In this document: in pieces, positions 2,931 to 13,226 of the stretch
Layout: each line of letters opens with the position of its first letter
Numbering within the stretch: position 1 is the stretch's first letter
NCBI RefSeq assembly: GCF_003932785.1
Contig: NZ_RQYT01000018.1
Span: 1-49,102, forward strand
Source of the DNA: Arachnia propionica
Lineage (GTDB): Bacteria > Actinomycetota > Actinomycetes > Propionibacteriales > Propionibacteriaceae
Length of the DNA: 49,102 bases
Direction: 5' to 3'
The notes under the pieces: model-generated
What the model saw: the letters and a program-made list of their open reading frames with translations, nothing else
What the model was told of the DNA's origin: nothing
Databases searched by the model: none
Made by a program: the position numbers and the translations under genes

Positions 2931-3474
2931 ACCAAGCAGCGGCAAACAGCTCAAGCCGCTAAGCGCTTGGAGTCTTTGTCGATAAATCACCGCATGGGGT
3001 GTCGAACAGGTTGATCCTCTCGCCTGTGACAAGGGATTTTGTCTCAGAGCGATTCTGAGCGACCCGATCCCTCGGCACGGACGTGGGGAGGGCTGAAACC
3101 AGCCGGTGTGATCCGATTGCGGGACCGCTTTCTTCTGCTCCGAGGACTTCCCCCCGATGGTCGAGCCGGGTCCGGAGCCTGCGAAGGACCCGTGTCGAGA
3201 CCGACGTGGAACTCCGCTCGGCTCGAGTTCCAGCTCGGTGTGCCAGCGGGATGGAGGGAGCGCCAGAAATCTGGAACCAGATGGCTCATTGACTCGTGTG
3301 CTGCGGTGTGAGGAGAGAACGGTGTCTCAGTGGGTCCAGGACGGCTTCAGCGAGTCTGGCCGGAAACCCTGTTGGCCGACGGAGAACGAGGATCCTCGAG
3401 GCTCGTCCTTCGAAGCGGACAGTGACTCGTCCAACGTCTATGCTCTGAGGAGAAGTTTTCACGAAAGGTCCCCC
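2931..3474. other. Intergenic region with a repeat copy
   Basis: This 544-bp gap has no supportable gene. After parB there is a weak 6-bp hairpin (AGCGGC at 2938, GCCGCT at 2955) that could help stop transcription. A dispersed-repeat arm lies at 3158-3226. The open frame running through it into the next gene is made of repeat sequence and I do not regard it as coding. Confidence 0.6.
3158..3226. repeat. Dispersed palindromic repeat, single arm
   Basis: TGGTCGAGCCGGGTCCGGAG, then AAGGACCC and GTGTCGAGACC, followed by CTCGGCTCGAG. It belongs to the family at 468 and 735. Confidence 0.72.
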
Positions 3475-4158
3475 ATGAGCGAGCCGTACCCCTCCGGCCC
3501 CCAACAGCCCGGTTTCCAGCCCTCACCCAACGGCCAGCCCTATTCTTCTTCTCCTGGCTTTGATGCTCCGCACCAGGGTGGGCCCATGATGCCGCCCAAT
3601 CCCTACGGTCAGCAGCCCACCGGTTATCCGCCGGCAGGGTATGGGGCTGTTCAGCCCGGGTACGGTCAGCCGACCGGGGCCGGTTACCCGCCTCAGGCAG
3701 CCTACGGACAGCCCCCCTACTACGCGGCTGCACCCAAGCGCCCCGGTGCCGCGACGGGGGCCTCGGTGCTCGGCATCATCAGCGGCAGTTTCGGACTGAT
3801 CATCGGTTTTTTCAGCGTGATCGGAGTCACAGGTGTGGATCTGGCCGCCACCCTGCTCAAGGTGGACAACGAGGGCCTCTACGTCGCCCTGGGCTACATC
3901 AACGCCTTCGGCACCTTCCTCACCGCCGTCGCGCTGCTCGCCAGCGGCATCACCTTCCTCAAGGGCAAGGGATACGGGGTGCTCCTCGGGGCAGGCTTCG
4001 CCCAGCTGGCCATGGTCACCATCCTTCTGGTGATGCATGTCATGACCGAGACCCTGGCCCTCGCCCCCACGATTCTTGCGTTGTGCATCGGGTACGGTCT
4101 GGCAGCCACCATCGTCTTCCTCCTGCTCAGCCCCTCGGCCAAGCAGTGGAGCAAGTGA
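3475..4158 (+). CDS. Proline/glycine/tyrosine-rich four-helix membrane protein
   Basis: A 227-residue protein of unknown function. Residues 1-95 are low complexity, rich in Pro, Gly, Gln and Tyr with repeated GYP/PYGQ-type motifs, and are probably a disordered cytoplasmic tail. The rest holds about four hydrophobic segments (starting near ASVLGIISG, YINAFGTFL, YGVLLGAGF and LALAPTILAL). This resembles the many actinobacterial DUF4190/DUF4064-like membrane proteins with a proline-rich N-terminus. I chose the ATG at 3475 because it follows GAAAGG and because the frame upstream consists of a dispersed repeat. A strong terminator follows. No partner or substrate can be inferred. Confidence 0.8.
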   Translation: MSEPYPSGPQQPGFQPSPNGQPYSSSPGFDAPHQGGPMMPPNPYGQQPTGYPPAGYGAVQPGYGQPTGAGYPPQAAYGQPPYYAAAPKRPGAATGASVLGIISGSFGLIIGFFSVIGVTGVDLAATLLKVDNEGLYVALGYINAFGTFLTAVALLASGITFLKGKGYGVLLGAGFAQLAMVTILLVMHVMTETLALAPTILALCIGYGLAATIVFLLLSPSAKQWSK

Positions 4159-4172
4159 CCACTGATCTCCTC

Positions 4173-4207
4173 AGGTGCCCGGGCCTCGGCCCGGGCACCT
4201 GTCGTTT
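4173..4207 (+). terminator. Intrinsic terminator after the membrane protein gene
   Basis: A perfect 13-bp inverted repeat (AGGTGCCCGGGCC / GGCCCGGGCACCT, loop TC) starts 14 bp after the stop codon and is followed by a short T-rich stretch. It separates the partition block from the restriction island. Confidence 0.85.
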
Positions 4208-4227
4208 CAGGGGCTGATGCCCATGGC

Positions 4228-4257
4228 TTCGAAAATGTCAGGGCACGCCACTACCGT
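4228..4257 (+). promoter_or_regulatory. Possible hsdM promoter
   Basis: TTCGAA at 4228 and TACCGT at 4252, spaced 18 bp, are weak -35/-10 look-alikes between the terminator and hsdM. They are only suggestive, because actinobacterial promoters are degenerate. Confidence 0.25.
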
Positions 4258-4309
4258 AGGGTGCGCAAGGGATGGAGCACGCAGGACGTGCCTGGACACC
4301 GGAGACGAC

Positions 4310-5863
4310 ATGGTTCCCACCACCACCGAGGGGCAGCGTGCGGAGCTGCACCGCACCATCTGGCGCATCGCGAACGACCTCCGGGGCAGCGTCGACGGGT
4401 GGGACTTCAAGGCGTATGTGCTGGGGATGCTGTTCTACCGCTTCATCTCGGAGAACCTGACCGCCTACATCAACGCTGATGGGGACGACGACTACGCGGA
4501 GCTGCCGGATGCCGTTGCGGAGCGAGGCATGCAGGGGATCATCGAGGAGAAGGGGTTCTTCATCTTCCCCTCGGAGCTGTTCGTCAATGTCCGTGCCCGG
4601 GCCGCTGAGGACGCAAACCTCAACGAGACGTTGGCACGGGTGTTCCGCAACATCCAGGGCTCCGCGATGGGCCAGCCCAGTGAACGCGCCCTCAAGGGCC
4701 TGTTCGACGACCTCGACGTCGACAGCTCGAAGCTCGGACCAACCATCCCCAGGCGGAACGAGAAGCTCGTCAAGCTGCTCAACGCCATCGGTGACCTGCC
4801 GCTGGGAAGCTTCGAGGACAACTCCATCGACCTGTTCGGCGACGCCTACGAGTACCTCATGCAGATGTATGCCTCCCAGGCGGGCAAGTCCGGGGGCGAG
4901 TACTACACGCCGCCGGAGGTCTCAGAGGTGCTGGCCCGGCTCACCGTGGTGGGACGGAAGCGCGTCAACAAGGTGTACGACCCGGCGGCGGGTTCCGGGT
5001 CGCTGCTGCTGAAATTCGCGAAGGTACTGGGGCCGGAGAACGTGGACAGGTTCGTCGGTCAGGAGATCAACCTCACCACCTACAACCTGGCCCGCATCAA
5101 CATGTTCCTGCACAATCTCAACTACGAGCAGTTCGACATCGCGCACGGCGACACCCTGCTGGATCCGTACCACGAGGACGAGGAACCCTTCGAGGCCATC
5201 GTGTCGAATCCGCCCTACTCCATCAAATGGGAGGGCAACTCCAACCCGCTGCTCATCAACGATCCACGATTCGCCCCTGCGGGCGTGCTGGCACCGAAGT
5301 CGAAGGCCGATCTGGCCTTCACGATGCACATCCTGTCCTGGCTGGCGGTCAACGGCACGGCGGCCATCGTCGAGTTCCCCGGGGTGCTGTACCGGGGCGG
5401 CGCGGAGCAGAAGATCCGCAAGTATCTCGTGGACAACAACTACGTGGATGCGGTCATCCAGCTGCCGCAGGACCTGTTCTTCGGCACGACGATCGCCACC
5501 TGCATCATCGTGTTGAAGAAGTCGAAGCCCAGCAACGATGTGCTGTTCATCGACGCCTCGGCGGAGTTCAGCCGGGTCGGCAACAAGAACAAGCTGCAGC
5601 CGGAGCATCAAGAGCGCATCCTGGAGCTGTACACCGCCCGGGCCGAGGTCCCCCACGTCGCGTCGCTGGTCAGCAACGAGGAGATCGGCGAGGCCGACTA
5701 CAACCTGTCCGTCTCTGCGCACGTGGAGAAGGAGGACACCCGCGAGGCGGTCGACATCACGGAACTCAACGCGGAGATCGCCCGCATCGTGGCCCGTCAG
5801 GCCGAACTCCGGACCGAGATCGACGCGATCGTCGCGGACCTGGAGGGAGACTCGGTGCCATGA
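4310..5863 (+). CDS. hsdM: Type I restriction-modification methyltransferase HsdM
   Basis: HsdM is the modification subunit. With HsdS it methylates adenine in a bipartite target, and it also takes part in restriction with HsdR. The 517-residue protein has an N-terminal HsdM_N-like helical domain (about 1-140), the S-adenosylmethionine motif DPAAGSGS (224-231) and the catalytic N6-adenine motif NPPYS (300-304). I chose the ATG at 4310, after GGAGA; the open frame upstream runs back into the terminator and gives an extension the family lacks. The stop overlaps the next start (ATGA), so hsdM-rhuM-hsdS-mrr form one coupled operon. Length is typical. Confidence 0.95.
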   Translation: MVPTTTEGQRAELHRTIWRIANDLRGSVDGWDFKAYVLGMLFYRFISENLTAYINADGDDDYAELPDAVAERGMQGIIEEKGFFIFPSELFVNVRARAAEDANLNETLARVFRNIQGSAMGQPSERALKGLFDDLDVDSSKLGPTIPRRNEKLVKLLNAIGDLPLGSFEDNSIDLFGDAYEYLMQMYASQAGKSGGEYYTPPEVSEVLARLTVVGRKRVNKVYDPAAGSGSLLLKFAKVLGPENVDRFVGQEINLTTYNLARINMFLHNLNYEQFDIAHGDTLLDPYHEDEEPFEAIVSNPPYSIKWEGNSNPLLINDPRFAPAGVLAPKSKADLAFTMHILSWLAVNGTAAIVEFPGVLYRGGAEQKIRKYLVDNNYVDAVIQLPQDLFFGTTIATCIIVLKKSKPSNDVLFIDASAEFSRVGNKNKLQPEHQERILELYTARAEVPHVASLVSNEEIGEADYNLSVSAHVEKEDTREAVDITELNAEIARIVARQAELRTEIDAIVADLEGDSVP

Positions 5864-6906
5864 GCAAGCCACCCACCTCATCATCCGCCGAGTACCTGAC
5901 CTTCGTGGCTGCCACGGGGGGAGATGACACGGCGGTGGAGTTGCGTTACCAGGATGAGAACATCTGGGGAACGCAGCGCATCATGGCTGAACTCTATGAT
6001 GTGACAGTGCCAGCGATCTCCCAGCACTTGAAGCGGCTGGTTGACGACGGTGAGATCCAACCGGAATCAGTTATTAAGAAATACTTAACAACTGGGCCCG
6101 ATGGCAAGCAATACATGGTCAAACACTACAACCTCCAGGCGATGGTTGCTGTTGGGTTCAAGGTCAACAATCCCAGGGCCGTTCAATTCAGGCGGTGGGC
6201 GTCGCAGATTGTGAAGGACTACACCATTCAAGGGTGGGTCATGGACGTCGAACGTCTCAAGAGTGGTCACCGATTCACCGACGAGTTCTTCAAGCGCCAG
6301 CTGGAGCTCATCCGGGAGATTCGTGCTTCGGAGCGGAAATTCTATCAGCAGATCACGGACATATACGCCACTGCTTTCGACTACGACCCGCAGGCTGCGA
6401 CAACTCGGGAATTCTACGCCTTGGTCCAGAACAAGCTTCATTGGGCAACCCATCGTCACACGGCGGCGGAGCTCATCGTGGAACGGGCCAACGCCGAGAA
6501 GCCCAACATGGGACTCACCACCTGGGCCTCTGCGCCCGCGGGAAAAATAGTCAAGTCAGATGTCTCCATCGCCAAGAATTACCTCAGCAAGGAGGAGCTT
6601 GATTTCCTGCAGCGCCTCGTGTCGATGTATTTGGACTACGCTGAGCTGCAGGCAACGCGTAAGATCCCCATGTCCATGGAGGACTGGGCCAAACGGTTGG
6701 ATGGCTTCCTCGAGTTCAATGGATCAGAGATCCTGATGGGCCCGGGGAGAATTTCACATGAACAAGCCAAACTTCATGCTGAAACCGAGTTCGAGAAGTA
6801 TCGAGTGGTACAGGACAAGCTGTACGTCAGTGACTTTGATCGTTTTCTTGAGTTGGAGGCAAGCGTTGGGCAGACAGCGAATCCTGAGGAGGATGGTGAA
6901 GAATGA
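5860..6906 (+). CDS. RhuM-family protein inside the hsd operon
   Basis: This 348-residue protein matches the virulence RhuM family in character. It has an N-terminal winged-helix-like segment (GTQRIMAELYDVTVPAISQH, residues about 31-50), a conserved RRWASQIVKDYTIQGW segment, and a long charged alpha-helical C-terminal half. The molecular role of RhuM is not established. Family members are known between hsdM and hsdS in several type I systems, so it is probably an accessory or regulatory part of the restriction system. It overlaps hsdM by ATGA at its start and hsdS by ATGA at its end. GC content and codon use are visibly lower than in neighbours outside the island (for example the AT-rich stretch near 6060-6090), suggesting transfer. 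Confidence 0.8.
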   Translation: MSKPPTSSSAEYLTFVAATGGDDTAVELRYQDENIWGTQRIMAELYDVTVPAISQHLKRLVDDGEIQPESVIKKYLTTGPDGKQYMVKHYNLQAMVAVGFKVNNPRAVQFRRWASQIVKDYTIQGWVMDVERLKSGHRFTDEFFKRQLELIREIRASERKFYQQITDIYATAFDYDPQAATTREFYALVQNKLHWATHRHTAAELIVERANAEKPNMGLTTWASAPAGKIVKSDVSIAKNYLSKEELDFLQRLVSMYLDYAELQATRKIPMSMEDWAKRLDGFLEFNGSEILMGPGRISHEQAKLHAETEFEKYRVVQDKLYVSDFDRFLELEASVGQTANPEEDGEE

Positions 6907-8141
6907 GCAGGATCGACGACCTGATCGCTGAGCTGTGTCCCGATGGCGTGGACTTCAAGCAGTTGGGTGAGATCGCGGAGCTTGTTCGCGGAAACGGAAT
7001 GCCCAAGTCGGTCCTGACCGACGAGGGAGTGGGGGCCATACATTACGGCCAGATCTACACTCGCTACGGGGCATGGGCCACGAAGACCATCTCCTTCGTG
7101 AGTCCAGAAACGGCGGTCAAGTTGGCCAAGGTTGATCCAGGCGACATCATCATCACCAATACCAGCGAGAACGTCGAGGACGTGGGAAAGGCGGTCGCAT
7201 GGCTCGGTGAAAAGCAGATCGTCACCGGTGGTCACGCCACGGTCATCAAACACGGCCAAGATGCAAAGTACCTGTCGTACTGGTTCCAAACGAGCTCCTT
7301 CTATTCCCAGAAGAAATCCTTGGCCACCGGGACGAAGGTTGTGGATGTTTCGGCCAAGCAACTTCAAAGAGTTCGTGTTCCAGTTCCCCCGCTTGAAATT
7401 CAGCACGAGATCGTGAGAGTCTTGGACAAGTTCGCCCAGCTGGAGTTGGAACTGAGGGTGGAATTGGAGGCGGAGCTGAAGGCCCGGATGCGGCAGTATG
7501 AGTACTACCGCGACAAGTTGCTGACCTTCGATGAAACGGCGGGGGGGGGGTGGACCTCATTGAGTGAAATTGGGCAGTTCGTTCGTGGGCGCAGATTTAC
7601 CAAGCAGGACATGGTACCTTGTGGTATCCCGTGTATCCATTACGGAGAAATCTATACCCACTACGGTGTCTCGGCCAGTCAGGTAGTCAGTCACGTGCGT
7701 GAAGACATTTCGGGTCAGCTCAGGTATGCGCAACCGGGAGATGTGGTGATCGCAGCTGTTGGAGAAACAGTCGAGGATGTTGGGAAAGCTGTTGCATGGC
7801 TTGGCGAGGTTCCTGTTGCGATTCATGATGATTCTTTTTGCTTCCGGTCAGGTCAGAATCCCACCTATGTCTCGTATGTCATGCGGACGACTTCTTTTCG
7901 GGAGCAGAAAAACCGTCATGTTTCGAGGGCGAAGGTCAAGCGAATCGGAAGCGAAGGGCTGGGGAAGATCAGAATTCCGCTCCCTCCCCTTGAAGAGCAG
8001 CGTCGAATCGTGTCCATTCTGGATCGTTTTGACGCACTGGTGAATCATCTCAGTTCTGGTCTGCCTGCTGAGATCGCTGCTCGGCGGAAGCAGTACGAGT
8101 ACTACCGGGATCGGTTGCTCACCTTCGAGGAGAAGCGATGA
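6903..8141 (+). CDS. hsdS: Type I restriction specificity subunit HsdS, probably phase-variable
   Basis: HsdS recognises the DNA target through two target-recognition domains joined by conserved helices. The 412-residue protein has the classic repeat layout: TRD1 (1-150), a conserved coiled spacer ending in QYEYYRDKLLTF (about 201-212), TRD2 (from 217), and a second conserved spacer ending in QYEYYRDRLLTF. The two halves are clearly related (HYGQIYTRYG versus HYGEIYTHYG; VEDVGKAVAWLGE in both). Ten Gs at 7541-7550, coding Ala-Gly-Gly-Gly at 213-216, lie exactly between them. As sequenced the frame is open and full length. Start and stop overlap rhuM and mrr. Confidence 0.94.
   Translation: MSRIDDLIAELCPDGVDFKQLGEIAELVRGNGMPKSVLTDEGVGAIHYGQIYTRYGAWATKTISFVSPETAVKLAKVDPGDIIITNTSENVEDVGKAVAWLGEKQIVTGGHATVIKHGQDAKYLSYWFQTSSFYSQKKSLATGTKVVDVSAKQLQRVRVPVPPLEIQHEIVRVLDKFAQLELELRVELEAELKARMRQYEYYRDKLLTFDETAGGGWTSLSEIGQFVRGRRFTKQDMVPCGIPCIHYGEIYTHYGVSASQVVSHVREDISGQLRYAQPGDVVIAAVGETVEDVGKAVAWLGEVPVAIHDDSFCFRSGQNPTYVSYVMRTTSFREQKNRHVSRAKVKRIGSEGLGKIRIPLPPLEEQRRIVSILDRFDALVNHLSSGLPAEIAARRKQYEYYRDRLLTFEEKR
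7541..7550 (+). repeat. Poly-G tract (10 G) at the HsdS mid-point
   Basis: A homopolymer of ten Gs preceded by C and followed by TGG. With 10 Gs the frame reads Ala-Gly-Gly-Gly-Trp and continues through TRD2. With 11 it reads Gly-Val-Asp-Leu-Ile-Glu-stop (221 residues). With 9 it reads Gly-Gly-Pro-His-stop (219 residues). Both frameshifts leave an intact half-subunit. Such tracts are classical slipped-strand phase-variation sites. Confidence 0.85.
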
Positions 8142-9037
8142 TCCCCGACTACCAGACCTGCATGCGACCCGTGCTGGCTCGGCTTTCCGATGGTCAGACC
8201 TGGCGGAAGCGGGACCTCGTTGCTGCCCTGGAGGAGGAGTTCCAACTCACCGCGGAGGAACGCGCCGCGCTGTTGCCGAGCGGAAGACAGCGGGTGATCG
8301 CCAGTCGGGTGGGATGGGCCATCACCTACCTGGTGAACGCCGGGCTGGTTGAACGCCCTGCCCGTGGCCAGGAGAGAATCACCGAGGCTGGAATCGCAGC
8401 CCTCAGCGCCCATCCCGAGCGGATCGACACGAAGACCCTGGAAAAGTACTCGTCCTTCCGTGAGTTCCTGCAGCGCACCCGGGAGGACAAACCCGCGGCA
8501 CCAGCCGACCAGGAGGCCGTTGCCCCGACCGACCTCATCGCCCAAGCCATCAGTGTCAACCGGGCCACCGTCGAGACCGAGGTGTTGCAGGCCACCTTGA
8601 ACACCACCCCGGCGGCCTTCGAACACCTGGTCATCCGACTGCTCGGGGCCATGGGATACGGGCAGCGTGGCTCGCTGGAACGCACCCAGCTCAGCAACGA
8701 CGGTGGCATCGACGGGATCATCAGCCAGGACCCCCTCGGCCTGGACCGCATCTACGTCCAGGCCAAACGCTGGGCCGTGGACCGCACCGTCGATCGGCCC
8801 GAGATCCAGAAGTTCGCAGGAGCCCTGCTCGGCAGGCAGGGCGATCGCGGCGTCTACATCACCACCGCCACCTTCACCCGTGGCGCCTGCGAGGAGGCCG
8901 AACGGATCAACGCCCGCATCGAACTCATCGACGGCCCACGGCTGGCCCGCTTGCTGGTGCAGCACGGTGTGGGCGTCCAGGTCGAGGCCACCCACACCCT
9001 GGTTCGTCTCGACGAGGACTTCTTCGAAGGACTGTGA
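8138..9037 (+). CDS. mrr: Mrr-type restriction endonuclease
   Basis: Mrr proteins are PD-(D/E)xK nucleases, usually type IV enzymes that cut methylated DNA. This 299-residue protein has an N-terminal winged-helix Mrr_N domain (1-90), a linker, and the nuclease domain from about 150. Catalytic-type residues are visible in NDGGIDGIISQDPLG followed by YVQAKRW (D near 190, QxK near 208), and QKFAGALLG is a typical Mrr helix. Its ATG overlaps the hsdS stop, so it is translationally coupled to the type I operon. Possible roles are defence against foreign methylated DNA or a backup restriction arm. That it must tolerate the host's own HsdM methylation is inference. Confidence 0.9.
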   Translation: MIPDYQTCMRPVLARLSDGQTWRKRDLVAALEEEFQLTAEERAALLPSGRQRVIASRVGWAITYLVNAGLVERPARGQERITEAGIAALSAHPERIDTKTLEKYSSFREFLQRTREDKPAAPADQEAVAPTDLIAQAISVNRATVETEVLQATLNTTPAAFEHLVIRLLGAMGYGQRGSLERTQLSNDGGIDGIISQDPLGLDRIYVQAKRWAVDRTVDRPEIQKFAGALLGRQGDRGVYITTATFTRGACEEAERINARIELIDGPRLARLLVQHGVGVQVEATHTLVRLDEDFFEGL

Positions 9038-9079
9038 TGGAAATGCGACGACTGCGAACGGGACGGAGGAGCCTGATTC

Positions 9080-12000
9080 ATGAGTTATGAACCCATCGCG
9101 ATCTCCGCGGAGAGCACCGTCGTCGCCGAGTACACCCCTGAACCCAGCGACGAGACCGCCTACCAGTCCGAGGCCGAACTGGAACGAGACCTCATCCGCA
9201 TTCTCGAATCCCAGGCCTACGAACACCTCACCATCACGCGAGAGGAGGACCTCGTCGCGAATCTGCGTCGCCAGCTCGAGGCACTCAACTCCATCACCTT
9301 CACCGACGCCGAATGGGGCCGCTTCTTCCAGCAGCTCTGCCGAGGCACTGAAGGGATCGCCGAGAAGACCGCCCGTATCCAGATCGCTCCGGTCGAACTC
9401 CTTCGCCGTGACGACGACACCAAGAAGAACATCGTGTTGCTGGACCGCAGCCACATCCACAACAACCGGCTGCAGGTCATCAACCAGTACGAGACCCCCG
9501 ACGCCGACGACGCCAGCCCCGGCGGCGGCCGCCACGCCACCCGATACGACGTCACCATCCTCGTCAACGGGCTGCCGCTGGTCCACATCGAACTGAAACG
9601 GCGCGGCGTCGACATCCGGGAGGCCTTCAATCAGATCAACCGCTATCAACGCGACAGCTTCTGGGCCGGATCCGGGCTGTTCGAGTACGTCCAGCTGTTC
9701 ATCATCTCCAACGGCACCCTGACGAAGTACTACTCCAACACCACCCGGGACCGCCACATCAAGGACAGCCACACCCGATCAGGCACGAAGAAACGCTCCA
9801 ACAGCTTCGAGTTCACCTCCTGGTGGGCCGACGCGCAGAACAGACCCATCCAGGATCTCCGCTCGTTCGCCAAGACCTTCCTCGCGAAACACACCCTGCT
9901 CAACATCCTCACCCGCTACTGCGTGTTCACCGAGGACAAGTCCCTGCTGGCGATGCGGCCCTACCAGATCGTCGCCACTGAGCGGATCCTGCAACGTATC
10001 GACGTCGCCACCAACCATCGCCAACTCGGCACCATCGACGCCGGCGGCTACGTGTGGCACACCACCGGGTCCGGCAAGACCCTCACCAGTTTCAAGACCG
10101 CCCAGCTCGCCGCCACGATGCCGAGCGTCGACAAGGTGCTGTTCGTCGTCGACCGCAAGGACCTCGACTACCAGACGATGAGGGAGTACGACCGATTCAA
10201 GAAGGGGGCAGCCAACTCCAACACCTCCACCGCCGTACTCAAGGAACAGCTGGAGGACCCCGAGGCCCGCATCATCATCACCACCATCCAGAAACTCGCC
10301 ACCTTCATCAGGGGCAATCGGAGCCATCCCGTCTACAACCAGCACGTCGTCCTCATCTTCGACGAATGCCACCGCTCCCAGTTCGGCGACATGCACGCCG
10401 ACATCACCCGGGCCTTCAAGCGCTACAACCTCTTCGGATTCACCGGCACCCCCATCTTCGCCGCCAACAGCACCTCCGGCGGCAACCCTCGGCTCCGCAC
10501 CACCGAGCAGGCCTTCGGCACCAAGCTGCACACCTACACCATCGTCGACGCCATCACGGACAAGAACGTGTTGCCGTTCCGCATCGACTACGTGCGCACC
10601 CTCGACGTCGGCGCGGTCGTGGACAAGCAGGTCACGGCCATCGACACCGAGCAGGCGCTGCTCGCCCCGGAACGCATCCAAGAGATCGTCCGCTACATCC
10701 TTGACCACTTCGACCAGAAGACGAAACGCTCCTCCCACTACGAGCACTCGGTGGTGACCAACGTCGTCGCAGCCAGCAGGCGACGTCGCAGCGAGGATCT
10801 CATGCGGGCCACCCGGCGGGTCCGCGGCTTCAACGCGATCCTCGCCACCTCCTCCATCGACGCGGCACGGCGCTACTACAACCAGTTCCGGATCCAGATG
10901 GAACAGTTGCCACCGGACCGGCAGCTGAAGGTCGGGCTCATCTACTCCTACGGGGCCAACGAGGCCAGCGACGACGGGATCCTCGACGACGAGGCCTTCG
11001 ACACCGACGAGCTCGGCGACGATGCGCGCAGCTTCCTGGAGGATGCGATCCAGGACTACAACGACCTGTTCAGCACCAGCTACGACACCGGTGCGGACGG
11101 GTTCCAGAACTACTACAAGGACCTGTCGATGCGGTTGAAGAACCGTGAGCTGGACCTGGTGATCGTCGTCAACATGTTCCTCACCGGATTCGACGCCACA
11201 ACCCTCAACACCTTGTTCGTGGACAAGAACCTGCGCGCCCACGGGCTGATCCAGGCCTATTCCCGGACCAATCGGATCCTCAACTCGGTGAAGACCTACG
11301 GCAACATCGTCGCCTTCCGGGACCTGGAGGAGGAGACCAACAAGGCGCTGGAACTCTTCGGCAACCGGGAGAGCCGCGGGGTGGTGCTGCTGAAACCCTA
11401 CGGCGAGTACCACGCCGAGTACGCCGAGAAGGTGGCCGAATTGCTGGCCTCTTTCCCGCTGGGGCAACCGATCGTCGGGGAGGAGGCGCACAAGGAGTTC
11501 ATCCGGCTGTTCGGGGCGATCCTGCGCCTGCAGAACATCCTGTCGGCCTTTGATGACTTCGCGGGCAACGAGATCCTCACCGAACGCCAGTCGCAGGACT
11601 ACCGCAGCCTCTACCTCGACCTCCACGCTGAGTTCCGGCGCGAACAGGACGCCGACAAGGAGTTCATCAACGACGACGTCGTGTTCGAGATCGAACTCAT
11701 CAAACAGGTGGAGATCAACGTCGACTACATCCTCATGCTCGTCGCCAAACATCGGGACGAGTTCGGCGACGGCACGGACCGGGAGATCCACGCCGAGATC
11801 CGTCGGGCCGTGGACGCCAGCCCGAGCCTGCGCAACAAACGGGACCTCATCGAGACCTTCGTCGAGTCGATCTCCCCCGACGGTGAGGTCGACGAGCAGT
11901 GGCTGGCCTTCGTCGCGGAGAAGCGCGAGACAGAGCTGGCGACGATCATCCGGGAGGAACGGCTCGAGGAATCGACGGTGCGCAGCCTCGTCGAGGCCGC

Positions 12001-12193
12001 CTTCCGGAAGGGTGAACTCCAGACCTCCGGTACGGCCATCGCCCGGGCCCTGCCGAAGGGCATGTCGCGCTTCGATGAATCAGGCGCCCGGGAACGGACC
12101 AAGCGCCGGGTGATCGCGCGCCTCACTGCGTTCTTCGACCGCTACCACGGCCTCGGGGCCCACCCGGACGAGGACGACGAGCCGGACAGCTGA
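9080..12193 (+). CDS. hsdR: Type I restriction endonuclease motor subunit HsdR
   Basis: HsdR is the ATP-driven translocase and nuclease of the type I complex. The 1037-residue protein has an N-terminal PD-(D/E)xK nuclease (D157, then E171-L-K173, then the INRYQRDS motif), the helicase Walker A TTGSGKT (328-334), the DECH box (428-431) and motif III GFTGTPI. The C-terminal helical region (from about 850) should contact HsdM. The start ATG at 9080 follows GGAGGAGC; a 42-bp gap separates it from mrr. All motifs are intact, so restriction is probably active. A degenerate copy of the 19-bp dispersed repeat begins at the stop codon. Confidence 0.95.
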   Translation: MSYEPIAISAESTVVAEYTPEPSDETAYQSEAELERDLIRILESQAYEHLTITREEDLVANLRRQLEALNSITFTDAEWGRFFQQLCRGTEGIAEKTARIQIAPVELLRRDDDTKKNIVLLDRSHIHNNRLQVINQYETPDADDASPGGGRHATRYDVTILVNGLPLVHIELKRRGVDIREAFNQINRYQRDSFWAGSGLFEYVQLFIISNGTLTKYYSNTTRDRHIKDSHTRSGTKKRSNSFEFTSWWADAQNRPIQDLRSFAKTFLAKHTLLNILTRYCVFTEDKSLLAMRPYQIVATERILQRIDVATNHRQLGTIDAGGYVWHTTGSGKTLTSFKTAQLAATMPSVDKVLFVVDRKDLDYQTMREYDRFKKGAANSNTSTAVLKEQLEDPEARIIITTIQKLATFIRGNRSHPVYNQHVVLIFDECHRSQFGDMHADITRAFKRYNLFGFTGTPIFAANSTSGGNPRLRTTEQAFGTKLHTYTIVDAITDKNVLPFRIDYVRTLDVGAVVDKQVTAIDTEQALLAPERIQEIVRYILDHFDQKTKRSSHYEHSVVTNVVAASRRRRSEDLMRATRRVRGFNAILATSSIDAARRYYNQFRIQMEQLPPDRQLKVGLIYSYGANEASDDGILDDEAFDTDELGDDARSFLEDAIQDYNDLFSTSYDTGADGFQNYYKDLSMRLKNRELDLVIVVNMFLTGFDATTLNTLFVDKNLRAHGLIQAYSRTNRILNSVKTYGNIVAFRDLEEETNKALELFGNRESRGVVLLKPYGEYHAEYAEKVAELLASFPLGQPIVGEEAHKEFIRLFGAILRLQNILSAFDDFAGNEILTERQSQDYRSLYLDLHAEFRREQDADKEFINDDVVFEIELIKQVEINVDYILMLVAKHRDEFGDGTDREIHAEIRRAVDASPSLRNKRDLIETFVESISPDGEVDEQWLAFVAEKRETELATIIREERLEESTVRSLVEAAFRKGELQTSGTAIARALPKGMSRFDESGARERTKRRVIARLTAFFDRYHGLGAHPDEDDEPDS

Positions 12194-12216
12194 ACCCGTC
12201 GGAAGGCGGGCGAAAT
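12192..12216. repeat. Degenerate copy of the AAGGCAGGCGAA repeat at hsdR end
   Basis: GAACCCGTCGG then AAGGCGGGCGAAA matches the unit at 32970-32995 (GAACCCGTCGT then AAGGCAGGCGAAA) with only a few differences. It starts at the hsdR stop codon, the right border of the restriction island. Confidence 0.6.
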
Positions 12217-12287
12217 CGGGAGGGGGATGGGTGCGACTGGAAGGGTTGGGCGGGAAGTGGGACGGCGGCGCCGCGGTGACCCGAACC

Positions 12288-13226
12288 TCACCCGAGGCGG
12301 GCGCGCGCCTTCTCGATGAGCTCGGCGAACACCTTGCCCAGGCTCAGGTCGGCCGCGTCCAGGGCGAGCGGGACCAGTGAGGTCTCCGTCAGGCCCGGCG
12401 CGACGTTGCCCTCGATGAAGTACGGGACCTGGTCGCGCACGATGATGTCGGTGCGGGAGATGTCGCGGAGCCCCAGCAGCTCGTGCACCCGCACCGCGAC
12501 CTCCTGGGCCTGCTCCAGCACCTCCGACGGCAGGTCGCCCGGCGTGACGAAACGGGTCGCGCCCGCCGTGTAGCGGGCCTCGTAGTCGTAGACCCCTCCC
12601 GCGGGACGGATCTCCACCGGGGGCAGCGCCCGCAGCCCGTCGGCACCGTCGATGACGGTCACCGCCAACTCCACCCCGTCGATGAACTCCTCGACGACCG
12701 CCATCTTCCCGTACGCGAACGCCCCCACGAGCGCGCCCGGCAACTCCTCGGCCGCCATCACCTTCACCGCGCCCAGCGCCGACCCCGACCGGGCCGGCTT
12801 CACCATGAGCGGGAACCGCAGTTTCTCCCCGATCGCCGACATGATCGCCTGGGCGCCGAGCTCCCGGAAGATGTCGTCCGGCAACGCGATCTGCTGCGGT
12901 GTGGCGATCCTGCCCTTCGCGACGAGCCGGGTGGCGATCGACTTGTCGAAGGTCCGACGCGACGCCCCGCCGCCCGAGCCCACGAACGGCACCCCGAGCA
13001 CCCGCAGCACCTCACGCAGCGCCCCGTCCTCGCCGAGCCCCCCGTGCGCCACCGGCACGGCGACGGGATCCTCGTCGGCCTGCAACCTCGCGACGAGCTC
13101 CGAGTTGACGTCGACGACCTCCACGTCGAGGCCCTCCTCCCGCAACGCGGCGGCGACCCGCGCCCCGGAACGCAGCGACACATCCCTCTCGTGGCTCAGG
13201 CCACCGGCGATGACGAACACGGTCAT
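12288..13226 (-). CDS. D-alanine-D-alanine ligase-like ATP-grasp protein
   Basis: This 312-residue protein has the ligase N-terminal motif GGLSHERDVSLRSG, an ATP-grasp core (FPLMVKPARSGSALGAVKV, VEEFIDGVELAVTVI) and the metal-binding end VPYFIEGNVAPGLTETSLVPLA. D-Ala-D-Ala ligases make the dipeptide that ends the peptidoglycan stem. The substrate is not proven, since the motifs allow other dipeptide ligases, and another ddl may exist with the mur genes. The ATG at 13226 follows GGGAGAC. It is read in the same direction as the aminotransferase, 21 bp downstream of it. In other actinobacteria a ligase of this kind often lies next to parB; here the restriction island separates them. Confidence 0.85.
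   Translation of the reverse strand: MTVFVIAGGLSHERDVSLRSGARVAAALREEGLDVEVVDVNSELVARLQADEDPVAVPVAHGGLGEDGALREVLRVLGVPFVGSGGGASRRTFDKSIATRLVAKGRIATPQQIALPDDIFRELGAQAIMSAIGEKLRFPLMVKPARSGSALGAVKVMAAEELPGALVGAFAYGKMAVVEEFIDGVELAVTVIDGADGLRALPPVEIRPAGGVYDYEARYTAGATRFVTPGDLPSEVLEQAQEVAVRVHELLGLRDISRTDIIVRDQVPYFIEGNVAPGLTETSLVPLALDAADLSLGKVFAELIEKARARLG

Follow-up and report, generated by a model that had tools for sequence, protein, structure and literature searches.

The question raised by this locus is whether ten consecutive Gs in the middle of a Type I specificity gene (hsdS) form a switch of DNA specificity or an inert part of the coding sequence. The window, meaning the whole stretch of DNA that was analysed, is 49,102 bases long with a GC content of 68%. 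It derives from a draft assembly of 181 contigs, and the genome to which it belongs is 3.49 Mb. The reading preferred here, to which a probability of roughly 0.6 is given, is that hsdS carries a phase-variable frameshift switch in the form of the G10 tract. The full-length subunit would direct the enzyme to an asymmetric site, and half subunits would pair to direct it to a palindromic site, so that specificity would be changed and not lost.

A complete Type I restriction-modification operon of gene order hsdM-rhuM-hsdS-mrr-hsdR was identified in the window with Pfam and PADLOC. The hsdM, hsdS and hsdR genes, each with its family domains, share this one operon, which comprises the following genes.

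4310 to 5863, + strand: hsdM, Type I DNA adenine methyltransferase subunit (Pfam N6_Mtase 4.9e-109 and HsdM_N 5.5e-16, on 4175 to 5863; PADLOC MTase_I).
5860 to 6906, + strand: RhuM-family gene between hsdM and hsdS (Pfam Virulence_RhuM 8.5e-105; PADLOC PDC-S05).
6903 to 8141, + strand: hsdS, two-TRD specificity subunit of 412 residues with ten Gs (Pfam Methylase_S, two stretches).
8138 to 9037, + strand: Mrr-like Type IV (methyl-directed) restriction gene (Pfam Mrr_cat 1.9e-36 and Mrr_N 6e-28; PADLOC mREase_IV).
9080 to 12193, + strand: hsdR, Type I restriction and translocase subunit (Pfam HSDR_N, SWI2_SNF2 and EcoR124_C 2.9e-69).

The start of hsdM is likely the ATG at 4310, inside a longer open reading frame (4175 to 5863). 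ATGA overlaps join the rhuM stop to the hsdS start and the hsdS stop to the mrr start. The second of these overlaps is kept in all three operons of this gene order (the window, same-genus L082 and L086). Among relatives, rhuM and mrr were found before hsdS or after it, or were not seen in the stretch compared, in a comparison that undercounts neighbours because the flank was only 1.5 kb at many loci. No report of the hsdM-rhuM-hsdS-mrr-hsdR operon was found in the literature searched, a scope that excluded most subscription papers. As a separate observation, the operon co-encodes a methyl-directed restriction gene (the Mrr-like gene at 8138 to 9037) with a Type I system of possibly switching specificity.

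Within hsdS, three features were placed around the junction of the two target-recognition domain (TRD) modules.

7488 to 7538, + strand: final stretch of the first conserved region (MRQYEYYRDKLLTFDET), marking the module boundary by alignment of relatives, with a copy at the end of the second module.
7541 to 7550, + strand: G10 tract, a predicted slipped-strand frameshift switch (from the sequence and from the recurrence of frame-shifting repeats at the same junction in relatives).
7551 to 7567, + strand: out-of-frame TGA stops (last bases 7563 and 7567) at which translation ends with 9 or 11 Gs, and an in-frame TTG at 7560 (by translation).

The tract directly follows YYRDKLLTFDETA and adjoins the first conserved region (YYRDKLLTF); a T at 7551 comes directly after the ten Gs. 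It is thus a frame-shifting simple repeat at the TRD-module junction, as in NgoAV, and lies at the junction of the HsdS halves where an earlier note, made from the sequence, had placed it. Identity between the halves is 43% (83/191), so each is a TRD-plus-conserved-region module, and such a value is what interchangeable modules would be expected to show. The best solved relative by sequence is the S subunit of EcoR124II (7bst; E 2.2e-30, residues 150 to 409).

Translation of hsdS with altered tract lengths gave products of 411 residues with 7 Gs, 220 with 8, 219 with 9, 412 with 10, 221 with 11, 220 with 12 and 413 with 13. In silico, a one-base change therefore gives a truncated HsdS with a complete TRD and conserved region. 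The half of 219 or 221 residues contains TRD1 and the entire first conserved region, and both these lengths and the description of the truncated form as one complete TRD plus one spacer, as claimed in the earlier note, were reproduced.

LEAE/AELE-like four-residue repeats were also seen in the spacer (7440 to 7490; alignment columns 177 to 200), and their number varies among relatives. In NgoAV the number of LEAT repeats alters site spacing (PMC6789123, in the part available); with the variable repeats seen here, a second layer of specificity change is therefore possible.

In the proposed switch, slipped-strand mispairing would add or remove Gs in some cells. With 10 Gs (also with 7 or 13) a two-TRD HsdS is encoded, with which M2S1 would methylate, and R2M2S1 restrict, an asymmetric bipartite site. 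One G gained or lost should shrink HsdS to one half, probably altering the sites that are marked and protected: with 8, 9, 11 or 12 Gs the gene encodes a half of 219 to 221 residues with TRD1 and one conserved region. Two half subunits would then pair via their conserved regions and specify a palindromic site from the TRD1 half-site, and the specificity of methylation and restriction would change instead of being lost. Because the hsdS stop overlaps the mrr start, early termination in hsdS should also lower translation of the Mrr nuclease, and a frameshift in hsdS may in this way uncouple Mrr translation. A switch between a two-domain and a symmetric specificity had been put forward before. 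The anatomy, the reading frames and the junction repeats of relatives favour its frameshift part, and we infer length changes of the tract in this species, the pairing of halves into an active symmetric enzyme and an ensuing change in the expression of many genes (a phasevarion). By analogy with known systems, activity of the half state is likely but unproven.

Likeness to the EcoR124/EcoDXXI Type IC family is seen in the best solved relative, in the EcoR124_C domain of HsdR and in the LEAE-like spacer repeats, which presumably resemble the spacer repeats of EcoR124. For EcoDXXI, of this family, a half subunit is known. Unlike EcoR124 and EcoDXXI, the window has a frame-shifting tract at the module boundary. 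An inverting multi-hsdS arrangement of the SpnIII type was not found: one match to HsdS was obtained in the own genome at E 0.001, a search in which a distant hsdS could be missed, and of the two inverted-repeat pairs of at least 20 nt in 4000 to 13000 neither has an arm in hsdS.

The kind of switch predicted here is already known from NgoAV of Neisseria gonorrhoeae, and the window would be a case of it in a different phylum. The parallel drawn in the earlier note was apt. NgoAV is likewise a Type I operon with a G-tract at the junction of the HsdS halves, where a one-G change toggles between a 208-residue half and a full HsdS of ~410 residues, as compared with 219 to 221 and 412 in the window (PMC9577141, PMC6789123; accessible portions of both). 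The NgoAV reference strain is described there in the half state, with 7 Gs, whereas in the window ten Gs keep the two halves fused; the window operon also belongs to another phylum and contains rhuM and mrr. When one G is lost, the NgoAV halves become fused and the recognised site shifts from GCAN8TGC to GCAN7STCA (in the notation of that source), and tracts of 6, 7, 8 and 9 Gs were found among 92 strains (PMC9577141, same portion). The activity and variation of NgoAV were shown experimentally according to these texts, whereas those of the system in the window are predicted from sequence. In Helicobacter pylori, the single-TRD half-HsdS JHP0785 yields a palindromic site, like the half predicted here (PMC3936762, available passages). 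As quoted in the accessible part of PMC7394358, the survey of Atack et al. 2020 found phase-variation-capable repeats in 7.9% of REBASE hsdS genes.

HsdS relatives were drawn from contigs of species-representative genomes, from genomes of the same genus, family or order, and from IMG/VR. A first junction comparison comprised 110 loci, in 13 of which no junction could be mapped. The junction count was made on 215 loci, less 13 unmapped, 3 weaker than 1e-10 and 9 with a duplicate 200-base junction, which left 190 distinct junctions (110 genomic, the window included, and 80 viral). A simple repeat was present within the 91-nt junction stretch in 23 of the 190, the kinds being G, C, AG, GCAA and GACA. 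Two of the 23 repeat-bearing genes (L060 and L191) run off their contig and were scored as in frame. None of the 23 repeats has a unit length that is a multiple of three. A/T runs aside, 23 repeats fell at the junction and 17 in the rest of the gene (binomial p 4e-16). Counting A/T runs as well gave 23 and 41 (p 1e-10); both p values are nominal because the rows are related. Nine of the 17 repeats outside the junction lie where the second module ends, 581 to 639 nt downstream.

Poly-G junctions were found in a Coriobacteriia bacterium (L002, G8), Pseudoclavibacter (L007, G8), Phascolarctobacterium (L027 and L060, G7), an Oscillospiraceae bacterium (L032, G10), Propionimicrobium lymphophilum (L036, G8), Schwartzia (L052, G9) and a same-family genome (G054; L084, G10). 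A poly-C junction was found in L123 (C8). AG repeats were present at the junctions of L013, L044 (28 units), L064, L093 and L094, where L064 is a contig of Propionibacteriaceae bacterium P6A17, of the same genus as the window. Tetranucleotide junction repeats were on IMG/VR contigs.

The reading frame was broken at 5 of the 23 repeat-bearing junctions (L044, L064, L094, L183 and L193) as against 5 of the 167 junctions that lack one (Fisher p 0.003). In each of these five the half downstream of the repeat is an uninterrupted open frame, and the same holds for L245; these are all relatives and not members of this species. On IMG/VR, (GCAA)n alleles with 9 units are in frame (L190/L244) and one with 11 units is out of frame (L245); their conserved region is nearly the same and their TRDs differ. 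The alleles L244 and L245 are the nearest approach to length variation that was found, and the difference is between related alleles and not within a clone.

No length change was apparent in E. coli HsdS with G7, as judged by match length: the 14 matches spanning the 130-base query all had 130 bases, and three weaker matches (84-85% identity) were one base shorter. An E. coli-type prophage HsdS with G7 was also present on IMG/VR contigs (L159). Close HsdS relatives were not found on plasmids or phages, the best place having less than 60% identity in all 739 plasmid and 4 phage records; one Fusobacterium vincentii plasmid was matched by the HsdS search. Pattern scans of viral sequences for poly-G, GACA and AG gave 0 matches with patterns that were too narrow, since such junctions known among the collected viral loci (L198, L183) were missed. 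The GCAA pattern scan gave 4 contigs, 3 of which were already in the locus set.

Frame-shifting repeats of this kind could also act as a simple on/off switch, in which the half subunit is unstable or inactive and a one-G change silences the Type I system altogether. A TRD1-only construct from H. pylori left its palindromic site unmodified (PMC3936762, available passages), a counter-example to half-subunit activity. In addition, 43 of 92 N. gonorrhoeae strains presumably lack an active NgoAV-like protein, which was ascribed to hsdS1 mutations and the 7-G frameshift (PMC9577141, accessible portion). An off switch could sit anywhere, whereas a repeat at the module boundary leaves a complete TRD and spacer, and the downstream half has stayed open in the six out-of-frame relatives with a junction repeat. 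Plain silencing is considered unlikely, and the specificity switch is retained.

A further alternative is that both halves are made when the tract is out of frame. The ribosome would stop and restart at TTG 7560 or at another start, with a heterodimer and two homodimers possible. The in-frame TTG lies within a few bases of both stops, and its use as a restart for the second half is a possible, weak candidate; open frames are also kept in the downstream halves. Start codons were counted at 154 junctions, with 16 of the 19 repeat-labelled ones mappable. An ATG, GTG or TTG stood at the position in 9/16 repeat-bearing and 58/138 other junctions, and an ATG in 4/16 and 11/138, but neither enrichment was significant (any start p 0.30; ATG p 0.053). 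The second half of NgoAV is moreover reported to encode no active protein (PMC9577141, accessible portion). Restart as the main explanation was rejected, because start codons are not significantly enriched where the second module begins, and was kept as a rival that we judge improbable beside the frameshift switch between full and half subunit.

Less probable again is that there is no switch, the GGG codons serving as a Gly-Gly-Gly interdomain linker in a genome of high GC content. With independent bases, ~33 G/C runs of at least 7 and 1.3 of at least 10 were expected in the window, and 1 and 1 were observed. The single G10 is therefore not remarkable alone. The tract is in frame, and the same operon type occurs in L082 with no tract, both of which would suit a linker. 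On the other hand, the hsdS G10 is the only homopolymer of at least 7 in the window, and runs of this length are otherwise strongly depleted there (1 against 33 expected). When the codon order of hsdS was shuffled, a G-run of at least 10 arose in 71 of 20,000 shuffles and one of at least 8 in 1,074 of 20,000, counted at any position in the gene. The AG, C, GCAA and GACA repeats of relatives encode no glycine runs, have no unit that is a multiple of three and are out of frame in several cases. On this comparative evidence, a switch appears more likely than a mere glycine linker. Misreading of the tract length in the draft assembly, with the culture truly mixed or out of frame, is very improbable: homopolymers are error-prone under some sequencing methods, but the in-frame reading yields a complete, homologous protein.

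Eight distinct G/C tracts of at least 9 were found in the own genome, among which only the hsdS tract was placed inside an identified gene (open frames were inspected without gene calling). Two others (L235 and L237) lie 16 to 49 nt beyond the ends of long open frames. In L237 (G000:C160:75210-75220), G11 closes an inverted repeat, C8-GGAACGG...CCGTTCC-G11, close to where two long open frames, one on each strand, come to an end, and it therefore resembles a shared terminator. G9 matches were numerous in two same-genus genomes (313 in G012 and 555 in G019, on both strands and overlapping); in G012 the matches listed are long G/C runs near the contig start, on contigs C8 and C12, and are perhaps assembly artefacts. 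A poly-G of at least 8 at the hsdS junction was matched in 1 of 396 genomes of the phylum, the window's own, by one narrow pattern scan. The earlier statement that few tracts of this kind have been described from high-GC actinobacteria calls for qualification. In Propionibacterium acnes, 54 variable tracts, nearly all G/C, were published from 90 genomes; they tracked clades and were judged to reflect slow accumulation and not active modification (PMC4746626, in the part available).

The history of the repeats was examined on a quickly built HsdM tree. It has 79 rows, of which 14 carry a repeat at either junction and one is very long (L128); the window was absent, its fetched locus containing too little hsdM. 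At least 8 changes of the repeat label are needed, and starred branches force 5 of them. Shuffled labels gave a mean of 13.2 changes, and 0 of 500 shuffles were as low as 8. The label is clustered, so the 14 labelled rows represent a smaller number of independent origins. By the thresholds used, none of the 27 rows of a clade in which Pseudomonadota and Bacteroidota are abundant had a repeat. Within one HsdM branch the repeat has thus changed state several times, in a direction (gain or loss) that the tree does not tell. In the three loci of the window's operon type, the junction carries G10 in the window, T+G6 in frame in G010 (L086) and no tract in G004 (L082), and G10 is therefore not a fixed feature of the locus. 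Against the switch stand this lack of a fixed tract in relatives of the operon type, the single tract length seen in the one genome of the species, the lack of apparent length change around the E. coli G7, the P. acnes tracts judged slow and the failed H. pylori construct.

Fifteen loci were examined for a third module. A third TRD module was present in 12, and a repeat between modules 2 and 3 in 10 of these 12, which is not a rate because many loci had been chosen for a second repeat. The module 2/3 repeats were (GACA)15 in L018, (AG)6 in L032, G8 in L037, C9 in L042 and L048, (AGAC)3 in L072, (GACA)13 in L135, (AG)16 in L143, (GACA)9 in L145 and (GACA)16 in L175. L042 and L048 are 94-99% identical across their shared stretches. 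The three-module L011 and L066 have no module 2/3 repeat. Both junctions of L032 carry a repeat, the G10 being in frame and the (AG)6 out of frame. In L060 the first junction has G7, and (AAGC)15 follows the second module shortly before the contig ends; L060 and L201 both end at a contig edge. Since repeats are found at both module 1/2 and module 2/3 boundaries, module boundaries and not one particular site attract repeats. No report of junction repeats in three-module HsdS was found in the literature searched, a scope that excluded most subscription papers and the Type I repeat survey. The H. pylori protein JHP1422 is, like these relatives, a three-TRD HsdS, with two sites; the available passages of PMC3936762 describe no inter-TRD repeat in it and discuss its allelic variation as duplication. 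The stacked three-module versions are a more interesting extension than the window's own system.

Inter-module repeats were found in Actinomycetota, Bacillota, Bacteroidota, Spirochaetota and Thermodesulfobacteriota (from record titles and the HsdM tree). A broader reading, offered tentatively and with somewhat less than even confidence, is that convergent frame-shifting inter-TRD repeats make a recurrent multi-state HsdS switch in at least five phyla, that L032 could step between one, two and three modules, and that the switch of the window uncouples Mrr. Five repeat kinds share the same module boundary, and L032, whose first and second boundaries carry G10 and (AG)6, could give one-, two- and three-module forms. 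Mrr would be uncoupled as methylation specificity changes, which could prevent the cell from cutting at marks that it has only just placed. The window offers a case that can be tested, far from Neisseria, of a single replication slip that may alter the sites marked and cut and not silence the system. The suggestion that HsdS module boundaries are preferred repeat places across phyla would give a simple rule by which changeable methylomes are predicted from sequence. Out-of-frame forms are likely to be annotated automatically as broken genes.

One further arrangement was observed on IMG/VR. In L136 (~2988 to 5352), four single-TRD half-HsdS open reading frames stand in tandem, partly overlapping and in different frames, without repeats.
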